51,314 nucleotides of DNA from a virus, in the IMG/VR virus record IMGVR_UViG_3300032285_004401, positions 1-51,314 of that record. The stretch is one strand, 5' to 3'. The notes beneath the pieces are model-generated. The model ran no database searches and was not told the DNA's origin. It saw only the letters and a list, made by a program, of their open reading frames with translations. Below, one piece after another: positions 5,816-22,814 of this stretch. The stretch's first letter is position 1. Each line of letters opens with the position of its first letter. A program made the position numbers and the translations under genes.

Positions 5816-6565
5816 TTACATATTTTTTTGATGATTAACGTACTTAGTTTCATCCGTATGTACACCCTTAAAATATCTTCTTCCAGATTGATGATTTTTT
5901 TCTAAATCCACCGTTACTCTTTCTGTAGAAAGTCTTTGAGACTCCTCATTTTCTTTTTGTATTAAATCATCATTAAAATAATTTTCTACTTTTTCTACAG
6001 AAAATTTTTCAACAAAATTTCTTGGTATAGGAATAAAAGCACCTAAAGGGTCACCTTTTCTTACAGAAATAACAATATTTGGCACCGTTACTTTAAAATT
6101 AAAAGTAAAATCCCTTCTTATATTGTCGCATTCTATGACCCCAGTTAAAGCAATACATCCAGGAATAAATAAATTTGGTGGTTGTATAGTCATAATATTA
6201 ATATTTGGAGGAGTTTTAAGAGCAAAATTATTTTGAATAGTAACTATTCCACTTCCAAAACCATTTTTTATATATTGTTTTTCTTCATTATCATTGTTTA
6301 AAAAAGTTATTTCTGCATCTTTAGTTGTGCCACCCCAAATAATGTCAAAGTCTCTCATAGATTTAATTAAAAATCCATATTGATTTCCTATAGTTAATGG
6401 AAGGCAATAATATGCATGTGCATCGAACCATTCTCTTTTTGCCTTACCTTTTAATGGATCTATAATTTCTTCAAAATATGTTATAGCATTAACTGCGTTT
6501 GGCACAATAAGAATTTTATTTTCTGGTACTTCATACCCTATATCATTAATATATGGACTTCCCAT
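5816..6565 (-). CDS. DUF6065-like protein
   Basis: 249 aa. Contains YCLPLTIGNQYGFLI and GSGIVTIQNNFALKTPPN, then LFIPGCIALTGVIECD and GDPLGAFIPIPRNF, the pattern of DUF6065 proteins, which are often found near 2-oxoglutarate oxygenase and sugar genes. The last 50 residues are charged and probably flexible. It follows the 2OG oxygenase gene with a 35-base gap holding a TTTCTCC-complement ribosome site. A role in the same modification pathway is inferred from position; the biochemical function of the family is unknown to me. Confidence 0.6.
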   Translation of the reverse strand: MGSPYINDIGYEVPENKILIVPNAVNAITYFEEIIDPLKGKAKREWFDAHAYYCLPLTIGNQYGFLIKSMRDFDIIWGGTTKDAEITFLNNDNEEKQYIKNGFGSGIVTIQNNFALKTPPNINIMTIQPPNLFIPGCIALTGVIECDNIRRDFTFNFKVTVPNIVISVRKGDPLGAFIPIPRNFVEKFSVEKVENYFNDDLIQKENEESQRLSTERVTVDLEKNHQSGRRYFKGVHTDETKYVNHQKNM

Positions 6566-6600
6566 ATTTTTCTCCTTGTTTTTTTCTAAATAATTTATTG

Positions 6601-7197
6601 CTATTCAAACATAGCTGGGTATCCATCATAACGATACCAATTGACTACTGCGTATCGTGTTCCAGATGTCACTGGTTTTACACGATGAAGATATGGGAAT
6701 GATGAACTAAATACTATAATATCTCCAGCTTCTGGTTTATGACTTATGCCAAAATGCTGAAATTCAAATTCTCCGCCTTCATAATTATCATTAAGATATG
6801 CACTTACAGAAACTGTACGTGGAAACTTTTTACCATCATCAATATGCCAATCAAATTTATCATTATTTTGATATTTAAGAAAAATATATGGCCCTTTTTG
6901 TATTTTTTCTACATGATAATTAATTGCATAATCATTAATTTTTGGTTCAATCCAATTATTTATTCCTTCATATAGCATATCTAACGCATCATTATTATTA
7001 TTTTCTGATAATGCAGAATTAAAACAACTTCTTGATGGAACAATTTCATCAGAATAACTTTCTGTATTTACGCCCATTGCTGGAGTCCAACTTGATCCTA
7101 GGGTGGGTTCTACTAAACTTAGTAGGTAATCTGCTTCTTCTTTTTTTGCTTTGTACAAAATTATTCCTGGTGCCAATATAGTTTTTTCAATATCCAT
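6601..7197 (-). CDS. 2-oxoglutarate/Fe(II) oxygenase, prolyl-4-hydroxylase type
   Basis: 198 aa. The double-stranded beta-helix core has the metal triad His118-x-Asp120 (DWHIDDG) and His171 (YLHRVKPVTSGTRYAV), with Arg181 placed to bind 2-oxoglutarate. The strand motif GGEFEFQ and the GDIIVFSS turn are characteristic of prolyl 4-hydroxylases. All catalytic residues are present, so it is probably active. Candidate substrates within the same transcription block are the Thr-Pro-Pro linker of the lectin at 11752-13113 and the short collagen-like stretches of the protein at 36600-37187. Small phage P4H-like enzymes with unknown substrates are common, so a free metabolite cannot be excluded. Confidence 0.85.
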   Translation of the reverse strand: MDIEKTILAPGIILYKAKKEEADYLLSLVEPTLGSSWTPAMGVNTESYSDEIVPSRSCFNSALSENNNNDALDMLYEGINNWIEPKINDYAINYHVEKIQKGPYIFLKYQNNDKFDWHIDDGKKFPRTVSVSAYLNDNYEGGEFEFQHFGISHKPEAGDIIVFSSSFPYLHRVKPVTSGTRYAVVNWYRYDGYPAMFE

Positions 7198-7207
7198 ATG
7201 TATATAA

Positions 7208-7783
7208 TTAATTTCTAATCGCTAGGTTAATGCAAGCTCTTGGAGCTTTAAAAGTTTCTACTTCATGAGCTAGAAGCTTCGGAACAAAAATAAAATCTCC
7301 TTCAGTAACATGATATTCATTTTCTAAATTTTCACCTGTTCGCCAAATCATTTCTCCCTTAATAACCCATTGAAATTGATCAACCAAATCTCTGTGGTTT
7401 TTTCCAACTACACCTCTATTTTTCATAAATGTTATCAATGCAAAGTTATTAGTATATATATCACTTGGATACACAGATAATCCCCATTCTGTGACTGGTT
7501 TTAATTCTGGTATTACTTTCATGTAAAGATCCTCTGGATCAAATAGCTGAAAAGCTAACCTTGACCAAAATCTACACTTGAGCTTAAAGCTTAAATACTC
7601 TTCATCTAAATTTTCTGTATCTAAATACGATCTATCTGGAAACTTTTCTATATCCGTTTCTACATAACTTGCAATAACATTTAAAATTGTATCCCAAGAT
7701 GGGAGTTCTGGAAATGGATTTTTAAATATATGTATTCTATTTTCTTGTCTTGCTTTATCTATTTCAGATAAATCTATTGTCAT
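7208..7783 (-). CDS. Cupin-fold protein
   Basis: 191 aa. The C-terminal half holds a cupin barrel: GKNHRDLVDQFQWVIKGEMIW, then VTEGDFIFVPKLLAHEVETF. The His-Arg-Asp at the first motif and His at the second could bind a metal. The N-terminal half is helical and Asp/Glu-rich (ETDIEKFPDRSYLDTENLDEE). It could be a second oxygenase-type enzyme or a sugar epimerase/isomerase, but only the fold is supported. It lies between the carbamoyltransferase and the 2OG oxygenase with a few bases between genes, so all three are probably co-expressed. Confidence 0.65.
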   Translation of the reverse strand: MTIDLSEIDKARQENRIHIFKNPFPELPSWDTILNVIASYVETDIEKFPDRSYLDTENLDEEYLSFKLKCRFWSRLAFQLFDPEDLYMKVIPELKPVTEWGLSVYPSDIYTNNFALITFMKNRGVVGKNHRDLVDQFQWVIKGEMIWRTGENLENEYHVTEGDFIFVPKLLAHEVETFKAPRACINLAIRN

Positions 7784-7805
7784 TTTTACTCCTAGGCTTT
7801 TTTCT

Positions 7806-7814
7806 ATTATATCA
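7806..7814 (-). promoter_or_regulatory. Extended -10 promoter (TGATATAAT) ahead of the cupin gene
   Basis: Minus-strand TGATATAAT ends 22 bases before the cupin start and overlaps the end of the carbamoyltransferase gene. No clear -35. Same form as the elements at 11716, 19208 and 37568. Confidence 0.4.
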
Positions 7815-9236
7815 CATAAGTATTTTACAATTATATTGTTTTTCCCACGCCTTTACATCATAAATATCATTAATCATTGGTTGACCTTTTATGTTTAAAC
7901 TAGTATTCAAAAGAACTGGGATACCAGTTAATTTATACCATTCAGACAATACGGAATAAAGCCCTGAGTGTTGATTTTTATTTACAGTTTGAACTCTTGA
8001 AGTCCCATCTTTATGAACAACGGCGGGGATTAAATCTGGTTTTAAACATTTAACTGTGTATTGCATATACGGAGAGGCAAAGTCCATATCAAACCATTTA
8101 TCTGCAAACTCTTCCATAACAACTGGTGCAAATGGTCTAAAAAGCTCTCTTTGTTTAATTAGATTAACTTTATCTTTAATAGATGTGTTTCTAGGATCTG
8201 CTAATATACTTCTGTTGCCAAGAGCCCTAGGGCCATACTCTGCTCTACCTGTTGCTACCGCTACAACCCCATCTTTTAATATACCGTCAATTATTTTGTC
8301 AACTGGATATTCACCCTTAAGATCATAGCCAAGATAAGGTGTCTTCCAGTCCAAATGTCTTCCGTATAATGCTGCTGCTGCTCCTAAAGAGCTACCCGCA
8401 TCGCCTGGGTTTGGCATAATCCAAATCATATCAAATATATTCCATAGTAATGTGTTGGCTGATGAGTTGAGTGCACATCCACCCATAAATACCAAATTCT
8501 TTTTACCAGTTATTGAATATGCCATGTGCATAAAATCATTAAGTCTTTGTTGGTACACAACTTGAACTGCTGCTGCTATATCAAATTTATCTTGCTCAGA
8601 TTCAATCCATCCCCAATCAGTAATTCCTTTATGAAAGTTATATTTTTGTTTTGTATAGGAAGGAAAATAGTCATCAACTTTTCTATAGTATTTTTTCCAA
8701 TCTCCATATGCAGCCATCCCCATCATAATATATTCTTCCTGGTTGGGCATAAGTCCGATTAGTTTTGTAAATGCAGAATAAAATAATCCAAAACTAACTG
8801 GGTAGTTTTGCTTATATTTCAACCTTATTTTATTCCCCTCACCAACCCATATTGTGGAAGTATTGTATTCGCCAATAGAATCAAGAACAACAATAACAGC
8901 ATCATTAAAAGAGCTTGTATAATATCCTGCAGCAGCATGAGAATAATGATGGCTAAAGGATTTTCTAGGTATTTCTTTTATATTAAATCTTGGCTTCCAG
9001 TCACCAGATCCACCTTTTAAAAACAGTCTGGAGGCTTTCAAAAAAGGTTTTTCGTAATAAGCTATGGCATCAGGTACCCCATACTGCAAAGCATCACTAA
9101 TTAAACTATTATTAACATACCAGTCATTTTTTTCTTTACTATATCTTTCAGCATGACCAGCAAAAAGAATTTTGCTATCTTTAATTAAAGAAACAGAGGC
9201 ATCATGAGATGTTTCATTAATTCCTAAAATAATCAT
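7812..9236 (-). CDS. Carbamoyltransferase (NodU/CmcH/TobZ family)
   Basis: 474 aa. The N-terminal Kae1-like ASKHA domain starts with ILGINETSHDASVSL and has the metal-binding SHHYSHAAAGYYTS and VVLDSIGEYNTSTIW; MMGMAAYGD and GGCALNSSAN follow. The C-terminal YrdC-like part has EYGPRALGNRSILADPR and FRPFAPVV, which bind carbamoyl phosphate/ATP. It transfers a carbamoyl group, via carbamoyl-AMP, to a hydroxyl, usually on a sugar. It is shorter than typical members (about 550-600 aa), with a shortened C-terminus after LLNTSLNIKGQPM. In this setting the likely acceptor is a glycan on the virion. Confidence 0.88.
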   Translation of the reverse strand: MIILGINETSHDASVSLIKDSKILFAGHAERYSKEKNDWYVNNSLISDALQYGVPDAIAYYEKPFLKASRLFLKGGSGDWKPRFNIKEIPRKSFSHHYSHAAAGYYTSSFNDAVIVVLDSIGEYNTSTIWVGEGNKIRLKYKQNYPVSFGLFYSAFTKLIGLMPNQEEYIMMGMAAYGDWKKYYRKVDDYFPSYTKQKYNFHKGITDWGWIESEQDKFDIAAAVQVVYQQRLNDFMHMAYSITGKKNLVFMGGCALNSSANTLLWNIFDMIWIMPNPGDAGSSLGAAAALYGRHLDWKTPYLGYDLKGEYPVDKIIDGILKDGVVAVATGRAEYGPRALGNRSILADPRNTSIKDKVNLIKQRELFRPFAPVVMEEFADKWFDMDFASPYMQYTVKCLKPDLIPAVVHKDGTSRVQTVNKNQHSGLYSVLSEWYKLTGIPVLLNTSLNIKGQPMINDIYDVKAWEKQYNCKILM

Positions 9237-9311
9237 TAATATATATAATCTTTCTTATTTTTATTTTTTTTAAAAATTTTTCTAATAATTTTTTCTAAAT
9301 AATATTTTATA

Positions 9312-10232
9312 TTAGTAATCATTATTTTCCTTTAAAAAAGATTCAGCAATATGCATATGCATGTGTGAATTAAAATGACCAATATAATTTTTATAATGAT
9401 CTTCCGCATAAAAATATCTTTCTCCCCAAATATCTTTATACTCTTGATGACATTCTGGATCATCTATATTAGTTTTTTCTAGACTGTTATATCTTTTAAA
9501 TTTATAAATATCAACTTCTATAAAATTTAAAAATGATTGTTTGTTTTTTTCTTTAATTTTTTTAATAATATTAATTGAATTTTTGCCCCAAATAGAATAT
9601 ATTAAGTTAATCCCAGCTTCTTTACAATACATTTCTAAATTTAATATTGAATGACAATTTATATATAAGATTGATTCATTTGGAAATACATCACTTATTT
9701 TATGAGGAATTTTAGAAAATTTAGGTCTTTCTGATGCTACATCTGATCCAAATTCATTTGCATATGCAAAATTAAACCCAAAATAATTTTCATTATTTAA
9801 AATATTATTGATGTTTGGTAAATGTATTCTATTTAAATCTGGAAAAAGAATAAAAATATTTTTTGGATTTCCAAATTTTTTAATATAAGCAAAAATATTT
9901 TGCACAATAGTATTAATTGCTCCGCCTACTACAGAAATATTTTGATATTCACTATTTATATTTTTTGATAAAATATCAGCCCAAGTTTCATTTTGAGGAA
10001 CTCCTAATCCAAAAGAATGTGAACACCCAGATATTAAAATATTACATTTTGGTGAAAATTCTTGAGACCGATATCCCATGCTATTGTATTTATATTCTAT
10101 ATTTGGACTTGCTATAAAAAGATTATCTTCCCTAATAGTTTCAAAACCAAATCTAGATTTAAAACCAAATTGAAAAAAATTATTTGATCCAAAAAATTGG
10201 ATATCTTCATCAGATAATCCATCCAATATCAT
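9312..10232 (-). CDS. SGNH/GDSL-like hydrolase or acyltransferase
   Basis: 306 aa, very AT-rich gene. Block I is ILISGCSHSFGLGV with candidate nucleophile Ser71; the block II Gly is in ISVVGGAIN (about 103), block III is FPDLNR (Asn134), and HFNSHMHMHIAESFL near the end could supply the catalytic His. Such domains deacetylate or O-acetylate sugars. The gene lies between a glycosyltransferase and a carbamoyltransferase, which supports glycan modification. The usual Asp-x-x-His is not clear, so activity is uncertain. Confidence 0.65.
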   Translation of the reverse strand: MILDGLSDEDIQFFGSNNFFQFGFKSRFGFETIREDNLFIASPNIEYKYNSMGYRSQEFSPKCNILISGCSHSFGLGVPQNETWADILSKNINSEYQNISVVGGAINTIVQNIFAYIKKFGNPKNIFILFPDLNRIHLPNINNILNNENYFGFNFAYANEFGSDVASERPKFSKIPHKISDVFPNESILYINCHSILNLEMYCKEAGINLIYSIWGKNSINIIKKIKEKNKQSFLNFIEVDIYKFKRYNSLEKTNIDDPECHQEYKDIWGERYFYAEDHYKNYIGHFNSHMHMHIAESFLKENNDY

Positions 10233-11222
10233 TTAAACTGGATCTTCATTTCTATGATATACGCAGTGTTGATAACCTTCTGTTTTATGATATTCAGGGT
10301 TATACTCTGTATATTTAACATCCATACCACTAGCTAAACAAAATTCTACAACCTGTTCTTTTGATATGTCCCCATAAATTCCTTTAAGATTTCCAGACAG
10401 CAGTAAGTTTAATTTAATCATAGATTGATCTGAATTATTCCAATAATCTTTTTTATTTTTATCCATCCACGGTCTGTGAGTAAGGTATCTTGGTTTTTCT
10501 TCTCCTGGATATTTCTTTACTGTATTGTGCCAGTATAGAATTTCAGGTGTTACAAAAAATCTCCAGCCCCTGCACCATGCTTGTACTGTTACATAAGGTT
10601 CTTCTCCATTAAAATTCATTTCTGGATCAAGCGGTACTTCTTGAACAAAAGATTTATCCGCAAAACACCAAGTAAAATGAACCCAATATCCTTCATGAAC
10701 ATCACCATCTTTTGGAGGATGAGTAGAGTTTGGAAACCAAAAACCTGGAATAAATCCTTCAGATATTTGTGGGTGATATAAGTTTTCTTCTATATTTAAT
10801 TGTGTATCATGTATTTTAATAGATCCATCTTCTGCAACTTCATAATCTGGACCACAATATGTAATGATTGGTTTTTCAGATTTTAATAAAGCTTTTTTGT
10901 ATTCATAAAGGCATGTTTCATCCCAATTTTCTGCAAAAAGTGTATGACCACAAATATAAAGTATGTAATCATAATCAAAATCAACTTTAGTTGTTAAATT
11001 TCTTGCCCACAAAATACCTCTATATTCAGACAAATCAAACTTTCTATATACAATTTGATTTTCTGGGATAAAGCTAAGATCTGAATAATTGCTTTCTTCA
11101 TCTTCTTCAACAATAGAAAAATATAAATTTTCTTTGTTTTTAGCATTATTATATGCACTTAAAACTGTTCCTTTTAAATCTTTTTCTTTATAAGCTATTA
11201 TAGATATTATTATTTTTGACAT
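10233..11222 (-). CDS. Glycosyltransferase, GlcNAc-transferase (Skp1-type, GT60-like)
   Basis: 329 aa. The N-terminus (IIISIIAYKEKDLKGTV) is a GT-A nucleotide-sugar fold. The layout matches the family named after Skp1 hydroxyproline GlcNAc-transferase (PF11397/GT60): LWARNL at 71-76, LYICGHTLFAENWDE at 88-102 in place of the family's DSHMRF...WD, then WVHFTWCFADKSF, FNGEEPYVTVQAWCRGW at 204-220 and the YWHN His232, ending in RYLTHRPW. Known family members put GlcNAc on hydroxyproline of Skp1. The canonical DSH is changed to CGH here, so metal binding may differ. Two genes downstream of the Thr-Pro-Pro-rich lectin and upstream of a prolyl-hydroxylase-like gene. Confidence 0.75.
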   Translation of the reverse strand: MSKIIISIIAYKEKDLKGTVLSAYNNAKNKENLYFSIVEEDEESNYSDLSFIPENQIVYRKFDLSEYRGILWARNLTTKVDFDYDYILYICGHTLFAENWDETCLYEYKKALLKSEKPIITYCGPDYEVAEDGSIKIHDTQLNIEENLYHPQISEGFIPGFWFPNSTHPPKDGDVHEGYWVHFTWCFADKSFVQEVPLDPEMNFNGEEPYVTVQAWCRGWRFFVTPEILYWHNTVKKYPGEEKPRYLTHRPWMDKNKKDYWNNSDQSMIKLNLLLSGNLKGIYGDISKEQVVEFCLASGMDVKYTEYNPEYHKTEGYQHCVYHRNEDPV

Positions 11223-11227
11223 TTACA

Positions 11228-11470
11228 CTACCACTTTCCTAAAGGACATGAAGCTTCTGCAAGTTTAGTTTTTGAAGGCATAAAACAACCACACTTTTTG
11301 CATTGTTTTGATAAAGATATTAATTCTGGACATGAATTACATATTTTCATTCTATTTTCTGCAACAATAGGCAAAGCCCATTCTGTTTTTGGATTTATTA
11401 AATCCCATGGCCTTGTGTCACCAAGATTTTTTTTATATTGTTGCCAAGGTGTTAGTTTTTCTTCTGACAT
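11228..11470 (-). CDS. Zinc-ribbon protein (DUF6171-like)
   Basis: 80 aa. Cysteines at 44, 47, 57, 60 and 75 in CNSCPEL, CKKCGCF and ASCPLGKW form a zinc ribbon of a kind often found beside tail and glycosyltransferase genes in phages of marine and freshwater bacteria (recalled pattern). The N-terminus has WQQYKKNLGDTRPWDL. It sits 5 bases from the glycosyltransferase and 3 bases from the preceding gene. Function unknown. Confidence 0.7.
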   Translation of the reverse strand: MSEEKLTPWQQYKKNLGDTRPWDLINPKTEWALPIVAENRMKICNSCPELISLSKQCKKCGCFMPSKTKLAEASCPLGKW

Positions 11471-11473
11471 TTA

Positions 11474-11689
11474 TTAAGCCTGTGGTCTTTTAAATTCTGT
11501 GCCGTCCCAAGTCCAGCCAGATTGAACTTCTGAATCATAAGGAATTTCAATAATTGTTGGTTCTGAAGAAAGAGCAGCTGCCAATGCTTTATTGTGATCA
11601 TATTTATCGCTTGAACCTGGCTCACCATCTTCAAAAGTTAAATCTGGACCAACTTCTCCGTCTATAACTAAAACAAACTTTCTTATCAT
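11474..11689 (-). CDS. Small acidic protein of unknown function
   Basis: 71 aa when started at the ATG at 11689, which has GGAG 8 bases upstream; an in-frame TTG at 11701 is too close to that site. Sequence MIRKFVLVIDGEVGPDLTF...SGWTWDGTEFKRPQ; the WTWDGTEF ending is typical of small phage structural proteins. A consensus promoter (TTGACA-N18-TATAAT) lies directly upstream, so this gene begins a new transcript covering the modification cassette. Confidence 0.65.
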   Translation of the reverse strand: MIRKFVLVIDGEVGPDLTFEDGEPGSSDKYDHNKALAAALSSEPTIIEIPYDSEVQSGWTWDGTEFKRPQA

Positions 11690-11715
11690 TTTTTTCTCCA
11701 ATATCTCTTTTACTG

Positions 11716-11745
11716 ATTATATCAGTAATTTATTATTTTTGTCAA
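11716..11745 (-). promoter_or_regulatory. Consensus sigma70-type promoter with palindromic operator
   Basis: On the minus strand: TTGACA (11745-11740), 18-base spacer, TATAAT (11721-11716), with TG before the -10. The -10 lies inside the palindrome TTACTGAT-ata-ATCAGTAA (about 11710-11728), so a repressor bound there would block it. It drives the 11689 gene and probably the whole glycan-modification cassette to its left. Confidence 0.75.
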
Positions 11746-11751
11746 GAACAA

Positions 11752-13113
11752 TTAACAAGCTACGCAACGTCCTCCAGAAACAATTCCTCCGCAACTACGG
11801 CAACAAGTAACACTGCTGAAACAATTGGTTACGCAATCGCAACCTGTAGGTGGGGTAACAGGTGGTGTAACAGGTGGTGTAACAGGTGGGGTTACAGGTG
11901 GTGTAACAGGTGGGGTAACAGGTGGGGTTACTGCAGGTGGGGTAACAGGTGGGGTTACTGCAGGTGGTGTAACAGGTGGGGTTACTGCAGGTGGGGTAAC
12001 AGGTGGGGTAACAGGTGGTGTAACAGGTGGGGTCACTGCAGCAGCATAAGGGGTAACTTGATTTGATGCTGTTGACATCGTACTATATCCATTTTGATTA
12101 TATGCATTTACTGTAAATTGATATGCAGTTCCTTGTACAAATGATCCCGTTACTGTCAGTGGATTGCCTTGTGACGTTACAGTAATATTAGTAATTGGAG
12201 AAGAAAGAACATAGTGTCCTTGTATTAATCTTCCGCCTGTAATTGCTGAGTCTGTATACGATAAACTTACCGTTGTATTACTTGTTCTTGTAGCAGTACC
12301 TATTGTTGGTGTGTTTGGAACATTTGTTGAAATAGTTCCGTATATTCCATTAAAAACAGAATAGTTTTGTGCAACTTCAGCAGCTGATAGTGCACGATTA
12401 TAAAGCATTACTGCTCCAATACTACCGCTATAAAATCTTTCTGGACTTGAAGAAAATCCATTGCCAACTGTAAGAGAAGGAATTTGTGTAGGCCATGTTG
12501 TATTAGATTCATTAAAAACTTGAGATGCATTTACATAGCCAATAGCTAAGTTTGTAGATGTGTTCCAAGTTACAGTAATTTGATACCAGGTGTCGGATGA
12601 GATGGAGCCAAATTGATGACTTGTTAGTGTGCCTGCGTCAGTACCAAATAACATTCCCATTGTTCCACTTGAACCAGTTGTTCCAGCTTGTTCAAATCTA
12701 AAACCAACATTTGACCCTTGAAAATGTGAATGTATTGGATTTCTATAATTGCTTACATCTGTGGAGTTCATCCAAAAAGATATTGTTCCTTGTGTATAAA
12801 AAGATCCAAAACTTGGAATTTGAAAAAGAGCATTATATCCAGGCAAAAATCTAAAAACATTACCATATGTACCTGCTCCAGGTTGTCCGTAATAATTATT
12901 CCAATTTAAAATATTTCTGCCATTGCCACTTAAATCGGTTCCATAAATATTAGTAGGTCTTAAATTGGGATCTATATAAAATTGTAATCCATCTTGTATT
13001 GGAGTTCTTTTAGTGAATGCATATAAATCTTCTTCTTGCCAAATTCCAGTTGACTCATATGTAAATAATGGTCCTAATGGTGCGTATATGCCTATTCTTC
13101 TGTTATTAGCCAT
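11752..13113 (-). CDS. LamG/FnIII lectin with Thr-Pro-Pro repeat linker and Cys-rich tail
   Basis: 453 aa. Residues about 40-255 are a concanavalin/LamG jelly roll (GLQFYIDPNLRPTN, QGTISFWMNSTD, WYQITVTWNTST, GSIGAVMLYNRALSAAEV), a carbohydrate-binding fold. A fibronectin-III-like domain follows (about 265-355, PNTPTIGTATRTSNTTVSLSY). Residues about 360-425 are repeats of VTPP and AVTPP. The last 28 residues hold nine Cys (CDCVTNCF, VTCCRSCGG, CVAC). It looks like a surface adhesin, with binding domain, rigid extensin-like stalk and disulfide or metal knot. It overlaps the next lectin gene and is probably displayed on the virion. Confidence 0.8.
   Translation of the reverse strand: MANNRRIGIYAPLGPLFTYESTGIWQEEDLYAFTKRTPIQDGLQFYIDPNLRPTNIYGTDLSGNGRNILNWNNYYGQPGAGTYGNVFRFLPGYNALFQIPSFGSFYTQGTISFWMNSTDVSNYRNPIHSHFQGSNVGFRFEQAGTTGSSGTMGMLFGTDAGTLTSHQFGSISSDTWYQITVTWNTSTNLAIGYVNASQVFNESNTTWPTQIPSLTVGNGFSSSPERFYSGSIGAVMLYNRALSAAEVAQNYSVFNGIYGTISTNVPNTPTIGTATRTSNTTVSLSYTDSAITGGRLIQGHYVLSSPITNITVTSQGNPLTVTGSFVQGTAYQFTVNAYNQNGYSTMSTASNQVTPYAAAVTPPVTPPVTPPVTPPAVTPPVTPPAVTPPVTPPAVTPPVTPPVTPPVTPPVTPPVTPPVTPPTGCDCVTNCFSSVTCCRSCGGIVSGGRCVAC
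11850..12042 (-). repeat. Coding minisatellite (12/15-bp VTPP/AVTPP units)
   Basis: Tandem 12-base units (forms of GTTACACCACCT on the coding strand), interrupted at three places by a 15-base unit that adds Ala and carries a CTGCA. The units are nearly identical, so copy number could change by slippage and alter linker length. It is part of the lectin reading frame; every unit is a multiple of three. Confidence 0.9.
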
Positions 13114-14855: not shown

Positions 14856-15773
14856 TTATAATCCAGTTGTATATGTATGAACCAGGGCCACGGCTATTAC
14901 TGCTGCAACTACTCCAACTAATACCTTGTAATAGTCTTTAAAATCTGAGCCAAAAATACGCTTACCAATTATCATGCACTTATGCATAGGGGACAATATA
15001 TATCCCGCCCAATTAACTGCAAAAAGAATTGGAAGATACATTTGACCATAAATTGGAAGAAGGATTCCAAGAACTCCTGCAAATTTTCCGCTACTCCCAA
15101 GAATGAATGAAAGTACAAATGAGCCAATTAATGCAACAATCAAAAATGATGAATTTTGTCCATTACCTAAAGCACTTGCAATAGCGTCTCTATGATATCC
15201 AACAAAATTACCAAGAACCAAAAGTCCAGTTACAATAAGCAGTGTGATTATATTGTCTTTTACAATAGCTTTTGTGTCTAGCTTTTGAACTTCCCGCCTT
15301 GATCTAACATTAATTTCTACGTCATCTTCCTTGATCTTTCCAAAGATATACCATAGGGTGCATACGGCTACTGTTGCAAGTAATGGCCATGTTGATCCTA
15401 GAAATGACCAGTATCCAATATTAAGTGCTGCCATTGGCAGAATAACTGTTTTTTCTAGAGGAGACCAAAAATAGAAATGATGAGTTGCTAAATAATCAAT
15501 AACTCCATACTTCTTTCTACGCTCATCTCCGTGTACTGGTGCTAATGTATTTAAAACTCCAGCAGAAATAACTACACGACCATTAATTGGAAGAACTCCA
15601 GAAATGGCTGATGTAAGAGCAATTACTGCTCTTTTTGATTTTATTCTCTTTGCAATAAATGCATAAAGAGGTTGAAACACGTCATATTTACGTGCATAAT
15701 ATGAAAGAACCAATACGGTTCCAAGCATTAAAATGTAATACCATTCTTCGAATAGTATGTTAAGTGATGGCAT
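14856..15773 (-). CDS. DUF401-like integral membrane permease
   Basis: 305 aa with about 8 hydrophobic spans (YYILMLGTVLVLSYYA, LLATVAVCTLWYIF, NIITLLIVTGLLVLGNFV, FLIVALIGSFVLSFILG, LVGVVAAVIAVALVHT). SGVLPINGRVVISAGVLNTLAP and HHFYFWSPLEKTVILP near the first third, with GSSGKFAGVLGILLP later, resemble the paired re-entrant loops of DUF401 / ion-transporter-superfamily proteins. The substrate is unknown, possibly an organic acid. Unusual in a tail-gene block; it overlaps the U32/methyltransferase gene by 14 bases, so the two form one unit. Likely an auxiliary metabolic gene acting in the host membrane. Confidence 0.7.
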   Translation of the reverse strand: MPSLNILFEEWYYILMLGTVLVLSYYARKYDVFQPLYAFIAKRIKSKRAVIALTSAISGVLPINGRVVISAGVLNTLAPVHGDERRKKYGVIDYLATHHFYFWSPLEKTVILPMAALNIGYWSFLGSTWPLLATVAVCTLWYIFGKIKEDDVEINVRSRREVQKLDTKAIVKDNIITLLIVTGLLVLGNFVGYHRDAIASALGNGQNSSFLIVALIGSFVLSFILGSSGKFAGVLGILLPIYGQMYLPILFAVNWAGYILSPMHKCMIIGKRIFGSDFKDYYKVLVGVVAAVIAVALVHTYTTGL

Positions 15774-17424
15774 CTAATTTCTCCTTTGTAACTACCACTA
15801 TATAAAGCCCATTCCACCAATCTTTTTCAGATTCAATGTCGTTAAGGACCATTTTTGAATACAGTATACTTAATCCTGCTTTCTTAATACCATCTGCTGC
15901 ACCTTTTACAACCCCGTCCCAATTTGCATCATCAAATATAATAACGGCGGTATCAGCAAGACAATCTTTATAATATTGTACTGCATTTGCTGTATTAACA
16001 GGATCGTGGGGACCATCGTAAAAGAAAAACTTTACATCTTTAATATCAGATGTATTTACAGCAAACATATGAGAATCAAAGAGCATAACATCGTTGCCTT
16101 TGATATATGGTTTAATATTATTGATAAACTTATCTTTCTTATTCTCAACAATGTTAATGCCATCTTGTGTAACGGGTGTCACATCTTCTTTCCAATTGTC
16201 TACAAAATAAGCTTTTATACTATTATCTTTTAATGCTGCTGCTCCAGTAGATCCGAGATATGAGCCAACCTCTAAATATGATCCGAGCTTTCCAGCAAGT
16301 CCATTTATAAGTGATTGCACTCTAGTACTAGTTAATCCTGGAATATCAAGTTCTACTCTTCTGTTTACAGAATCAACTAGTTCTTGTGTGACTTGCATCA
16401 CAATAGGATCTTGAGTCTTGCCATATTTAGCATTATAAATCTTATCGCAAAAACCACAATCCCAGCAGTCAAACTTACAATTTTTAATCTTATTACGCCA
16501 TACATCAATAGGCTTATCTGCTAGATTTGTTTCTTCTAAGAAACCCTTAAATGATTCAAACAAGATTTCGTGACCTTCTCTGTACTTATCAATTATGTCC
16601 ATGGTTTCACGGAGTCTACTTGTAGATTCCCGCCCATGCATCTTTATAACATCTATGCCTAGGTCATTTAAGAACTCGTCCCAGTCAGCCTTCCAAGGGG
16701 GAAAATTAGCTGTTTTAAGGGGCATTGCGGGATCTTCATGATCCCACTTTGGACAAGATACACGACTGATTGGATCATTAAAGTATTGCGGGGTTGTAGA
16801 GATTCTTGTATTATTAAACTGATAATGTTCATCCATCATAATACAACCGCCAGCACAGCCTTCGTTTGCCAATAATGAAAGTTTAACTCCGTACTTTTCT
16901 TTAGCTTTTTTAAACCTTAAAAGTTTTTCGTGATCTCTCATCAAATCTCTATCAAGATTAATATAATTAAATCCTGCTTTTGCAAGCTTTTCAATATCTC
17001 TTGGCTCTGATACATTTCTGAGGATTGTGTTCTTTATAAATAACTCTGGAAAACTTGCTTGTATTTGACCTGTAGACACCCAATGTGTATGGGGTATTGT
17101 GACAGATCTTATTCCAGCCTCATAGACGGGTTTAAAGCTTTCTATCCATAGGTCTAGGTTTTGTTGTGAAGGTCTTACTTCAATATTGTTAAATACGGCG
17201 GAAGCGGTAATACCAGTAACCTCTTGGACATATGTAGCCATTCCAATAAGATAATTGTGGTCTTCTTCATTTTTAAACGTATCCCCCATAGCATCTTGAC
17301 TAAATGGGGGGATACGGCATGTAAAATAAAAATCGTATATTAGATCTTTATTCCGCTTGAGAAACTCCAGGAAGTTCTGAAAGTCTTTCTCCGTTAACTT
17401 TGGATTCAATGGCACTGAAAACAT
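15760..17424 (-). CDS. U32-peptidase-like barrel fused to SAM methyltransferase
   Basis: 554 aa. Residues 1-340 resemble the peptidase U32/UbiU family: MFSVPLNPKLT start, NEGCAGGC (Cys190, Cys194), EHYQFNNTR (His200), SCPKW (Cys224), and a Cys cluster at 316, 320, 323 and 326 that could hold an Fe-S centre. Residues about 360-554 are a class I methyltransferase: SYLEVGSYLGSTG at 382-394 (SAM motif I), AYFVDNW, FFFYDGPHD and VIIFDDANWDGV, as in Methyltransf_24/TylF-type domains. The start at 17424 lies 77 bases inside the preceding gene, an unusually long overlap. Substrate unknown; the fusion suggests a two-step modification of one target. Confidence 0.75.
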   Translation of the reverse strand: MFSVPLNPKLTEKDFQNFLEFLKRNKDLIYDFYFTCRIPPFSQDAMGDTFKNEEDHNYLIGMATYVQEVTGITASAVFNNIEVRPSQQNLDLWIESFKPVYEAGIRSVTIPHTHWVSTGQIQASFPELFIKNTILRNVSEPRDIEKLAKAGFNYINLDRDLMRDHEKLLRFKKAKEKYGVKLSLLANEGCAGGCIMMDEHYQFNNTRISTTPQYFNDPISRVSCPKWDHEDPAMPLKTANFPPWKADWDEFLNDLGIDVIKMHGRESTSRLRETMDIIDKYREGHEILFESFKGFLEETNLADKPIDVWRNKIKNCKFDCWDCGFCDKIYNAKYGKTQDPIVMQVTQELVDSVNRRVELDIPGLTSTRVQSLINGLAGKLGSYLEVGSYLGSTGAAALKDNSIKAYFVDNWKEDVTPVTQDGINIVENKKDKFINNIKPYIKGNDVMLFDSHMFAVNTSDIKDVKFFFYDGPHDPVNTANAVQYYKDCLADTAVIIFDDANWDGVVKGAADGIKKAGLSILYSKMVLNDIESEKDWWNGLYIVVVTKEKLDAIT

Positions 17425-19228: not shown

Positions 19229-20407
19229 CTATGCACCGTATCTTGTAGCAGTTACTGAAGCTGCTGCGGATGCACAAAAACCAGAAGATTGTCCATTATG
19301 TCCCTTTGGCATAGTTGTTGTACCCATAGCTGTTACAGCATTGTTTGAATAAGTAAACTTCCATGTCATATTATTTTGATTACCATTATAGTTTCCAAGC
19401 ATGTATCCCCAACTTTGTCCCATTTCAAGGTTTTCTTCACCTATGGTGGATATACCATTAAATGTTGTGATTGATGCACCTGTTGTATCATTTACTTGTG
19501 CCCAGCCCAAAGTAACGTTTCCGCCAGTTCCAATATAAAAATATCCCAATTTAGTACACAAAAACTTTCTATAACCATCGGATCCTGGTTGTGACCATGT
19601 AACCCATGAATCATTTGAGAATGTAAGTTTGTATCCCGTTCCAGCGTTTACTGCCCATCCATAAGTTTGACCCATTCCACCAGTTCCAGCTCCTGTAGAA
19701 AATGGTGCAGATGTTGTGGTATACATAACTTCTGTAGCAAAATCCATTTTATCTACTGCAGCATAACCGCCACCAATTGCGTATCCTTTTTGACCTACTT
19801 GATCTGTTATTGCTCCGTGTGTGTGTCGTGGAACAGACATATCCCATCCACCAACACCTGGTGTTGCGGTTCCTTCTGCTGCATATCCAGATCCGTATGT
19901 TACACCTTGTGCAGTTGGGTTATCTCCAATATATCCAAAATTTGGAGCTGTTCCCGATCCAAATGTTCCGTAACCCCTTGTTCTTGCAGACCCAGTATGT
20001 AAATTGATTGAAGATGTATGAACTGTTCCTCCTGAGTTTGAGCAACATGTATATGATTCATTTAAAAATGTACCTAGTCCATACGCATTGTAATCTGACC
20101 AAAAACCATCAAAATACCCGCCTGCTCTGTCCATTTGTTCTCCAACATAATAGGTAGTGTCAGTTGCATGCCATGTCTTGTTAACTGAACGCCAAGGATT
20201 AGAGTTTTTGTATCCGCCTAAAAGAAATCCGTGAGTGATTATACTTCTATATTGAAAGCTTGCGTTATTAATTAATGTATTTGTTTCACCTGGATAATTC
20301 CAATATGTTGTTGATCCGTTTGAATATAAATGCGTTCCGCCTGCTGTAGCAGTTGGTGCATTATATATACCAGGAAATACTGAAGTTGTAGAAAGTTTAA
20401 ATGCCAT
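19229..20407 (-). CDS. Tandem fibre paralogue 3 (MAFK family)
   Basis: 392 aa from the ATG at 20407, which overlaps the stop of paralogue 2 (TAATG); a longer frame from 20452 would overlap far more and lacks a good ribosome site. Shares with its two upstream neighbours a MAFK..TT..FPGIYN start, THGFLLGGYKNSNPWRSVNKTWHATDTTY, the EQMDRAGGY, EENLEMGQSWGYMLGNYNGNQNN and TMPKGHNGQSSG motifs. The repeated WGYMLGNY/NYGY segments look like kelch-type beta blades. Likely a virion surface protein. Its extra central segment (TCCSNSGGTVH) distinguishes it from the other copies. Confidence 0.75.
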   Translation of the reverse strand: MAFKLSTTSVFPGIYNAPTATAGGTHLYSNGSTTYWNYPGETNTLINNASFQYRSIITHGFLLGGYKNSNPWRSVNKTWHATDTTYYVGEQMDRAGGYFDGFWSDYNAYGLGTFLNESYTCCSNSGGTVHTSSINLHTGSARTRGYGTFGSGTAPNFGYIGDNPTAQGVTYGSGYAAEGTATPGVGGWDMSVPRHTHGAITDQVGQKGYAIGGGYAAVDKMDFATEVMYTTTSAPFSTGAGTGGMGQTYGWAVNAGTGYKLTFSNDSWVTWSQPGSDGYRKFLCTKLGYFYIGTGGNVTLGWAQVNDTTGASITTFNGISTIGEENLEMGQSWGYMLGNYNGNQNNMTWKFTYSNNAVTAMGTTTMPKGHNGQSSGFCASAAASVTATRYGA

Positions 20408-21513
20408 TATGTAGATACCGCCGAAGTTATTGTAGCTGCTGCTGTAAAACAATCCCCAGAAGATTGACCAACGTGACCTTTAGGCATACAAGCAGAACCC
20501 ATTTGAGTTTGTACATCTGTAGAATAAAGAGTTTTAACTGTATGATTATTTTGTTGTCCATCATATTGACCCAACATATAACCCCAATCTTGACCCATCT
20601 CCATATTTTCTTCTCCCAAACCTCTAAGCTTTGAAAGTGTTGCTAAAGCAGCTCCAGTGGAATCTGAAAATTTCATAATTCTAGAATCAGTATTTCCACC
20701 CATTCCCGCATATGCCCATCCATATTTTGATCCCAAAGTTTTATTTTGACCATCAGTTGAAGTTGCTGCTGCCCATGTAGATATAGAATCATTTGACCAG
20801 GTAATATATCTTCCTGCTGATGGATATTGCATCCAACCATATGTTTGTCCGCCCCAAGGGGCTACTGACTGTCCTGTATTAGGACCCACTATTGAAGTTG
20901 CATACATTATTTCTGTAGGAAAATGTAATTTATCAATTGCAGTTCTTCCACCGCCCAAAACATATCCTACTTGACCAGTTATATTTGTCATTCCACTACC
21001 AACAGCTATAGTTCCTGAAAGATTCCATCCACCTACGTCTGCTGTTGCACCTTGTGCATCTGTATATCCAAAATTAGATGCTGTTCCAGAAAATGTGCCT
21101 GGTCCATTTTGTCTCATCAAACCATTATGTAAATTAATTGAAGAAACGTGAGAAGATGCACCTTGGAATGTATCCATTGTTCCAAACATATATCCGTTGT
21201 AATCTGAATATGCACCACCTACATAAGCTCCCGCTCTATCCATTTGCTCTCCAACATAATAAGTAGTATCTGTTGCATGCCAAGTTTTATTAACTGATCT
21301 CCATGGATTTGAGCCTTTGTATCCATTACATAAAAATCCGTGAGTATAAATTGTGCGATATCTCCAACCAGTTCCTGGGACAGTGCTTATTGCACCTGGA
21401 TATGCAAAATAATAATTTGTTCCATCATTGTACATTGGTGAACCTTGATCAGCACTTGAAGGTGTTGGTAAAGTTCCTGGATATATTTGAGTTCCGCCTA
21501 TTTTAAATGCCAT
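20407..21513 (-). CDS. Tandem fibre paralogue 2 (MAFK family)
   Basis: 368 aa from the ATG at 21513 (TAATG overlap with paralogue 1). Same plan as its neighbours: MAFKIGGTQIYPGTLPTP, YTHGFLCNGYKGSNPWRSVN, GEQMDRAGAYVGG, EENMEMGQDWGYMLGQYDG and CMPKGHVGQSSGDC. It is the shortest of the three. Differences concentrate in the middle (about residues 105-250), as expected if the ends hold the fold and the centre meets the receptor. Confidence 0.75.
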   Translation of the reverse strand: MAFKIGGTQIYPGTLPTPSSADQGSPMYNDGTNYYFAYPGAISTVPGTGWRYRTIYTHGFLCNGYKGSNPWRSVNKTWHATDTTYYVGEQMDRAGAYVGGAYSDYNGYMFGTMDTFQGASSHVSSINLHNGLMRQNGPGTFSGTASNFGYTDAQGATADVGGWNLSGTIAVGSGMTNITGQVGYVLGGGRTAIDKLHFPTEIMYATSIVGPNTGQSVAPWGGQTYGWMQYPSAGRYITWSNDSISTWAAATSTDGQNKTLGSKYGWAYAGMGGNTDSRIMKFSDSTGAALATLSKLRGLGEENMEMGQDWGYMLGQYDGQQNNHTVKTLYSTDVQTQMGSACMPKGHVGQSSGDCFTAAATITSAVST

Positions 21514-22814
21514 TATACTGGATATCCTGACGTTATAGTTGCTGCTGCAAATGAACATGCTGCTGAAGATTGTCCAAAGTGTCCTTTTGGCATTCCCGCT
21601 GCACCTATTGATACACAGCTATCTGTTGTGTAATAAATTTTCATAGTTTGATTATTTTGTTGTCCATTATAGTTTCCAAGAAAATATCCCCAGTTCTGCC
21701 CCATTTCACCATTTTCTTCAGATGTTCCAGTATATGATTTAGCAAATGTAGATATTGTATTGCCAGTAGAATCAGAAGTTTTAAATATATTATCTCCAAC
21801 AACAACATAGTGTTGACCCAATTTACTTGAAACAGCTTTATACCATGCACCCTGACCATTTGTTGATGATCCTGAAGTGTTATTCCATGTTGTATATGCT
21901 TGATTGCTAAAATTAAATTGTTGATGATTACCGTCAAAATTTACCCATGCATAACTTGTTCCAAAAACACAAGTTGTCATTCCTGCAGTAACTGGAGCTG
22001 ATGTTGTTGTGTACATTGTTTCTGTAGGGAAATGAAGTCTATCTGTTGCTGATGTACCACCACCGTGTACATATCCAACTTGGTTTATTTGATCATTTGA
22101 GCAACCATGAAAGTCTCTGGCTTCTGCTGTATCCCATCCACCAACACCTGCTGATTGATAAAGAGTTGAATCTGTAAGAGTTGTGCTACCAGTATTTTCA
22201 ATCTGACTACCATATGAAACTCCTGCACCATCATGTGCTGGATCAAGACCAATATAACCAAATGGAACTGATGATGTACCAAAAGATCCATCTCCAGAAG
22301 ATGTTCCTGTAGGTCTAAATATTCCAGTATTATAGGCTGGTGCTACATATCCAGCTGTTGTTGAAGTTGAAATTGCATTTACGTTATAATCCCATTGCTG
22401 CATTCCACGTTGTCTACCAACTCCATTATGAAGATTATATGAAGAAGTGTGCGGGGAAGATCCAGAATAAGCATTGATAGTTCCATGAACATAAGCATTA
22501 TAATCAGATGTTGTTCCATCTCCATATGCCATAGCTCTATCTATTTGATCTCCTACTAAAAATGTAGTGTCATTAGCATGCCATGTTTTATTTACAGAAC
22601 GCCAAGGGCTTGAACCTTTATAGCCTCCCGCCAAAAATCCGTGAGTTAATATACTTCTATATTGAAGTCCTGTACCTGGGTTATTTGATGTTTGTCCTGG
22701 ATAAGCAAAATATGTTGAGTTTCCATCAGTTTCTAAAGGTGCACCAATTGTTGCAGATGAAGGAAAGTTAAATACTCCAGGGAAATAAGATGTTGAACCT
22801 ACTTTAAATGCCAT
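21513..22814 (-). CDS. Tandem fibre paralogue 1 (MAFK family)
   Basis: 433 aa, the longest of the three. MAFKVGSTSYFPGVFNFPSS, THGFLAGGYKGSSPWRSVNK, GDQIDRAMAYGDG, EENGEMGQNWGYFLGNYNG and GMPKGHFGQSSAAC are shared with paralogues 2 and 3. The start overlaps the S74-chaperone fibre gene by 11 bases. It has an insertion near residues 140-215 (GIFRPTGTSSGDGSFGTS) absent from the others. Probably part of the adsorption apparatus. Confidence 0.75.
   Translation of the reverse strand: MAFKVGSTSYFPGVFNFPSSATIGAPLETDGNSTYFAYPGQTSNNPGTGLQYRSILTHGFLAGGYKGSSPWRSVNKTWHANDTTFLVGDQIDRAMAYGDGTTSDYNAYVHGTINAYSGSSPHTSSYNLHNGVGRQRGMQQWDYNVNAISTSTTAGYVAPAYNTGIFRPTGTSSGDGSFGTSSVPFGYIGLDPAHDGAGVSYGSQIENTGSTTLTDSTLYQSAGVGGWDTAEARDFHGCSNDQINQVGYVHGGGTSATDRLHFPTETMYTTTSAPVTAGMTTCVFGTSYAWVNFDGNHQQFNFSNQAYTTWNNTSGSSTNGQGAWYKAVSSKLGQHYVVVGDNIFKTSDSTGNTISTFAKSYTGTSEENGEMGQNWGYFLGNYNGQQNNQTMKIYYTTDSCVSIGAAGMPKGHFGQSSAACSFAAATITSGYPV

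Follow-up and report, generated by a model that had tools for sequence, protein, structure and literature searches.

A prolyl-hydroxylase-like oxygenase gene linked to proline-rich virion stalk genes in uncultured phages: a candidate hydroxyproline-glycosylation cassette

In the Skp1 pathway of Dictyostelium and Toxoplasma, the prolyl 4-hydroxylase (P4H) PhyA and then Gnt1, a glycosyltransferase of family GT60, act on a single proline of a ubiquitin-ligase subunit, and in plants the extensins and arabinogalactan proteins bring together a proline-rich repeat, a prolyl hydroxylase and glycosyltransferases. Here we analyse a block of minus-strand genes (5816-13113) of IMG/VR virus record IMGVR_UViG_3300032285_004401, an uncultured phage whose 51,314 bases are called the window throughout, for which a first-pass annotation had proposed a hydroxyproline-glycosylation pathway acting on a virion lectin. 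The block encodes a prolyl-hydroxylase-like enzyme dependent on 2-oxoglutarate (2OG) and a GT60 transferase, a putative pair of the Skp1 kind, and on one other contig (L218) the two are fused. The phage candidate target is, however, a long proline-rich virion repeat, the phage transferase is swappable, that of the window carries CGH where the family has DSH, and its dependence on hydroxyproline is only putative. The plant comparison (the first-pass annotation spoke of an extensin-like glycosylated stalk) holds for the combination of a proline-rich repeat with hydroxylase and glycosyltransferase genes, and some phage cassettes carry GT61. It fails for the motif, since the repeat is VTPP and has no Ser-(Pro)n (Ser-(Pro)3-5), as well as for the secretory pathway, absent here, and for the glycosyltransferase families, which differ in the window.

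Among viruses, chlorovirus PBCV-1 also encodes a prolyl-hydroxylase-type enzyme, which hydroxylates proline peptides in vitro; unlike the present phage it infects a eukaryote, and the available text of that report describes no linked cassette of stalk and glycosyltransferase genes (PMC7019647). Mycobacteriophages encode transferases and have glycosylated virion proteins (PMC12619734, citing Freeman 2023), and proteomic analysis of jumbo phage XacN1 found at least two virion glycoproteins (PMC5852040), its GT60 gene lying beside a carbamoyltransferase gene; in contrast to the window, neither a prolyl hydroxylase nor a proline-rich stalk figures in the available parts of those two accounts. P4H and other 2OG oxygenase genes are common in phages and viruses, and their use has been called cryptic or was not investigated (PMC9301287, PMC9602691, PMC12774648). 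The first-pass annotation knew of no phage hydroxyproline-glycosylation system, and searches of an open-access library likewise yielded none, which does not prove that none exists. To our knowledge hydroxyproline O-glycosylation has no precedent in a prokaryotic system, and the phage case, if true, would be the first.

Proline-rich stalk genes upstream of the oxygenase

The proposed substrate has a Laminin_G_3/ConA-like domain (Pfam E 2e-15), matches phrog_8510, a virion structural protein (1e-13), and contains 15 VTPP units with three inserted alanines, together with an FN3-like domain and a Cys-rich tip; the Thr-Pro-Pro stalk on a lectin of the first-pass annotation is borne out. Because its threonine and valine codons vary, the repeat was rejected as a product of chance or a DNA-repeat artefact. 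In stalks of four other contigs (L217:6326-7423, L202:5246-6541, L231:5880-6809 and L218:2707-5436) a Hint/intein-like C-terminal domain replaces the Cys-rich tip, recognised by a Pfam match under the cut-off for L217 and by eye for the other three; such ends suggest self-processing beside the stalk. The proposed hydroxylase scores 60 bits against PF13640 (Pfam cut-off 27), and its H118-D120-H171-R181 site is complete, as had been noticed, and invariant across 10 diverse relatives. PHROGs 3531 and 2954 (labelled 'ferrochelatase') and 2297 and 274 (labelled 'DNA endonuclease') match 2OG oxygenases with HxD...H sites (window 6601-7197; L340:7926-8474), and phage 'ferrochelatase' annotations next to 2OG genes may be mislabelled oxygenases.

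The link between this oxygenase and the stalk recurs across phages, for which the genomic evidence is strong. A search with ten aligned P4H sequences as query returned 80 loci, and the 79 P4H genes fell into 30 clusters at 80% identity, 25 of them with more than 2.5 kb of upstream sequence. Counting as proline-rich a gene with a 30-residue window of at least 40% proline, on the same strand and at most 6 kb upstream of the P4H gene, such a stalk gene was present in 18 of the 25 clusters, while none was found downstream in any of the 30, and only one of 290 same-strand open reading frames (ORFs) outside the upstream window was proline-rich; the contigs counted are metagenomic and related to one another, and do not represent independent events. 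After dropping the clusters that contained contigs from the TPPV scan described below, the proportion was 14 of 21, and some bias may persist in this figure given that six of the ten rows of the search alignment were TPPV-selected. The repeats concerned are of many types (VTPP, VVPP, VAPPP, PVPV, IIATPPP, PTPTP, PTPQP, PPYVPPP and NPPPYY), and proline is their common element. The first-pass annotation had suggested gene co-occurrence in related phages as a check, and for oxygenase and stalk gene it is seen in the 18 clusters.

In the reverse direction, viral contigs were scanned for DNA encoding (TPPV)3, and the genes with at least 2.5 kb of downstream sequence were evaluated, the loci being partly redundant. 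Where the gene had at least eight TPPV units, a same-strand 2OG oxygenase lay within 4 kb downstream in 18 of 24 cases and upstream in none; with three to seven units it was found downstream in 2 of 14. The idea that phage 2OG genes of every kind are linked to proline-rich genes was rejected, as 12 distant 2OG loci of isolated or single-cell phages, mostly cyanophages, had no proline-rich neighbour (0/12).

The transferase and the exchange of cassette genes

The transferase of the window scores 83 bits against PF11397 (GT60; Pfam gathering cut-off 21), which confirms a family assignment first made by motif layout, and the alteration then noted in DSH is a change to CGH, with cysteine for aspartate and glycine for serine, so that the DxH metal-binding pattern is missing. 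CGH, a GEE motif and a distal histidine are invariant among its close relatives (its clade), and canonical DSH is present in the GT60 proteins of XacN1, L177 and L218; a count of DSH in 79 of 80 sequences was not used, since DSH formed part of the search pattern. An AlphaFold2 model built from 26 relatives (pLDDT 86, pTM 0.89) has a GT-A fold, and its best solved matches are polypeptide N-acetylgalactosamine transferases (ppGalNAc-T; E 1.7e-10, TM-score about 0.5), for which reason it resembles an enzyme that O-glycosylates proteins, the metal site being altered. Its sequence gave chance matches only against the PDB, and no relative turned up when 84,980 prokaryote genomes were searched with the transferase alignment, so that no host copy of the clade was seen. 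As to the proposal that it adds N-acetylglucosamine (GlcNAc) to hydroxyproline, the family stands; GT60, however, holds both the hydroxyproline-specific Skp1 enzyme and a polypeptide GlcNAc transferase of T. cruzi (PMC6939170), and threonine is thus a possible acceptor.

The first-pass annotation listed this transferase as part of the pathway; in the related cassettes it is not a fixed one. A glycosyltransferase is present in 18 of the 30 P4H cassettes and belongs to GT60 in three, to GT61 in six and to an O-FucT-like group in nine; a second 2OG-like enzyme occurs in 20, a DUF6171-like homologue in 18, a DUF6065 homologue in 13 and a homologue of the cupin gene in eight. Other cassette genes encode UDP-glucose-dehydrogenase-like proteins, epimerases, sulfotransferases, APS kinase, carbamoyltransferases and SGNH-like proteins. 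Both the transferases and the decorators are therefore interchangeable across cassettes, a sulfotransferase taking the place of the carbamoyltransferase. GT60 and oxygenase are joined in L218, where a single 498-residue ORF fuses PF11397, with intact DSH, to PF13640, both above the Pfam cut-offs (a fusion known from that contig only), and in L177, L261 and L262 a P4H-type gene directly follows GT60, the two genes of L177 overlapping end to start. The rule that GT60 implies a P4H was rejected, most phage GT60 genes having no P4H neighbour, and so was the rule that TPPV implies GT60, which was found in 0 of 50 TPPV contigs by a search that detects it in known carriers. On contig L010 (3428-5962) GT60 is preceded, a few genes upstream, by a tandem array of four divergent 2OG-like genes.

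The composition of the stalks bears on the acceptor. Six clusters have stalks with at most two Thr/Ser in the densest 60 residues, and three of these (L181, L186 and L188) also carry a glycosyltransferase. L181 is closely comparable with the window, with 65% identity between the stalk proteins over LamG/FN3 and 77% between the P4H enzymes; the repeat of this orthologue is PVVP as against TPPV, proline being kept and threonine almost absent, while GT61 replaces GT60, and two sulfotransferases plus APS kinase replace the carbamoyltransferase and SGNH genes. Since this repeat is nearly free of threonine, hydroxyproline would be the likely acceptor if the transferases of L181 act on the stalk, which argues by analogy, without proof, for the same acceptor in the window, where threonine is also available. 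The stalk cassette with APS kinase-like and two sulfotransferase-like genes (L181; L176:1180-5948) points to a possible sulfated virion glycan.

Layout of the block and remaining genes

All ORFs of the leftward block described by the first-pass annotation, from the stalk to DUF6065, are present (Table 1), and the gaps between them, in that order, are 50, 3, 5, 0, 75, 28, 10 and 35 bases, an operon-like packing. The carbamoyltransferase contains both Carbam_trans N and C domains (1.2e-34 and 1.6e-52) and is NodU-like, in agreement with its earlier naming as a sugar carbamoyltransferase; in XacN1 such a gene also comes after GT60. The SGNH label is weaker: GCS and a late D/H are conserved in six homologues, but no Pfam, PHROG or NCBIfam match of note was obtained, and the predicted structure was poor and not usable. 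Of the two further genes listed with the pathway, DUF6065 is secure and the cupin less so, its Cupin_2 match falling under the cut-off; the latter may be a second oxygenase, because it has an H130-x-D132...H173 motif and weak Cupin_8/JmjC_2 similarity.

Table 1. Genes of the block, in order of transcription
Position	Strand	Product and proposed role	Basis
11752-13113	-	Probable virion tail/fibre protein, proposed substrate	LamG/ConA-like, FN3-like, (VTPP)15 stalk, Cys-rich tip
11474-11701	-	Small protein, 75 aa, between stalk and DUF6171 genes	Homologues within the cassette at two further loci
11228-11470	-	DUF6171-like Cys-rich small protein, 80 aa	Pfam 1.2e-5 (just under cut-off), phrog_13558
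10233-11222	-	GT60-family glycosyltransferase, CGH replacing DSH, proposed stalk glycosylation	PF11397 3.6e-23
9312-10232	-	SGNH-like protein, perhaps an esterase or acyl-transferase acting on glycan	GCS and late D/H, both conserved
7812-9236	-	NodU/TobZ-like O-carbamoyltransferase, proposed sugar decorator	PF02543, PF16861, phrog_1601 1e-101
7208-7783	-	Cupin/JmjC-like protein, possible second oxygenase	HxD...H; Cupin_2 3e-5 (under cut-off)
6601-7197	-	Prolyl-hydroxylase-like Fe(II)/2OG oxygenase, proposed stalk-proline hydroxylation	PF13640 4.4e-16, phrog_61 7e-33
5816-6565	-	DUF6065 protein, last gene of block	PF19541 2e-37

The 57.6-kb contig L002 (IMGVR_UViG_3300037189_024976), longer than the window, also carries the block, with glycosyltransferase and P4H proteins 100% identical. 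Elsewhere in the window there are three look-alike glycine/tyrosine-rich tail-like proteins in tandem (19229-22814; 407, 383 and 433 aa), a hydrophobic transporter-like membrane protein of 305 aa within the structural region (14856-15773), and a 554-aa protein that matches phrog_1458 and has a C-terminal Methyltransf_24 domain (15760-17424).

Proposed reading and its alternatives

We consider that the block is a modular virion-stalk modification cassette in which stalk proline is hydroxylated and then glycosylated, probably through hydroxyproline, and give this reading a probability of roughly 55%. The LamG protein would be a tail adhesin and its TPPV repeat a stiff polyproline-type stalk; as the gene linkage suggests, the P4H-like enzyme, perhaps with the cupin-type enzyme, would hydroxylate stalk proline in the infected cell before assembly. 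GT60 would then attach a sugar to hydroxyproline, threonine being a possible second acceptor; most likely this sugar is an N-acetylhexosamine taken from a UDP-sugar of the host, and the carbamoyltransferase, possibly with the SGNH protein, would decorate it. The likely benefit would be a stiffer stalk, resistance to proteases, or a variable glycan coat that counters host receptor or defence recognition. That the stalk is glycosylated is likely; acceptor and sugar are what we infer, hydroxyproline being the best single reading, as yet unproven, on account of the relatives whose repeats lack Thr/Ser. That the enzymes 'would suffice' for the pathway, as first claimed, is too strong, given that the host has to supply the donor sugars and that the part played by the SGNH protein is conjectural.

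Several observations weigh against this reading. The nearest solved relatives of the oxygenase are PKHD-type hydroxylases (Sbal_3634 and PiuC first, with prolyl 3-hydroxylase 1 at 0.002), not collagen-type P4H, and its substrate can therefore not be read from sequence; the transferase, judged by its motif, lacks the Asp of DxH. Enzymes without a proline-rich protein, which the first-pass annotation had named as evidence against its idea, do occur, as 7 of the 25 P4H clusters have no such gene above the threshold (two hold weaker ones, 0.33), set against the 18 that have one. Most canonical phage GT60 genes (~27-30% identical to that of L177) have no P4H-type neighbour, and among 21 contigs with the GT60 clade of the window, many of which are fragmentary, 17 lack a match to PF13640; L005, the sister at 84%, has seven PF13640 genes elsewhere. 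The chlorovirus P4H is active in vitro, yet hydroxyproline was undetected in virions, according to the available text (PMC7019647). All support is computational, and the stalk chemistry is predicted.

It is rather unlikely, in our estimate, that hydroxylation and glycosylation are separate, the P4H only stiffening stalk proline and GT60 glycosylating the threonine of TPP directly, in a mucin-like manner. Such a division of labour is consistent with the T. cruzi polypeptide alpha-GlcNAc transferase in GT60 (PMC6939170), with the ppGalNAc-T-like fold, with the Thr-rich repeat of the window and with a large 57-60% GT60 clade in which the stalks are of PTPEP type and matches to PF13640 are mostly missing, but it accommodates poorly the GT60-P4H fusion of L218 and the stalks almost without Thr/Ser in cassettes holding both P4H and glycosyltransferase (L181, L186, L188). 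A stalk that is hydroxylated and not glycosylated, the CGH transferase being inactive or having another acceptor, seems to us unlikely: the metal-ligand Asp is replaced by Cys and 12 of the 30 P4H cassettes have none of the three glycosyltransferase families, whereas the clade keeps CGH, GEE and the distal histidine without change, as selection for function would lead one to expect, and the structure model is confident. Quite improbable is that the enzymes are directed at the host (glycans of its cell wall or capsule, its proteins or its 2-oxoglutarate pool) and have no more in common than an accessory-gene hot spot following a tail gene. Surface glycans can be substrates of carbamoyltransferases, sulfotransferases and SGNH proteins, and cassette content is variable; moreover, cyanophage 2OG genes have been published as affecting host nitrogen and 2OG metabolism (PMC9602691, PMC4164917). 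A hot spot, however, leaves unexplained the 18 of 25 against 1 of 290 proline-rich genes, over many repeat types, and the distant 2OG genes of other phages have no proline-rich neighbours.

We put forward only tentatively, at somewhat less than even odds, the wider proposal that phages carry a widespread, modular, hydroxyproline-linked system of virion-stalk glycosylation, in which a proline-rich repeat and P4H-like enzymes are combined with transferases and decorators that can replace one another. The linkage gives one subfamily of 2OG oxygenases a testable candidate substrate, the adjoining proline-rich tail stalk. If the proposed chemistry is true, some of the abundant 2OG oxygenases of phages would gain a function, swappable sugars could tune adsorption or evade recognition, the enzymes could be useful for producing hydroxyproline glycoproteins in bacterial cells, and phages would independently use a hydroxyproline-glycoprotein chemistry hitherto known in plants and protists.

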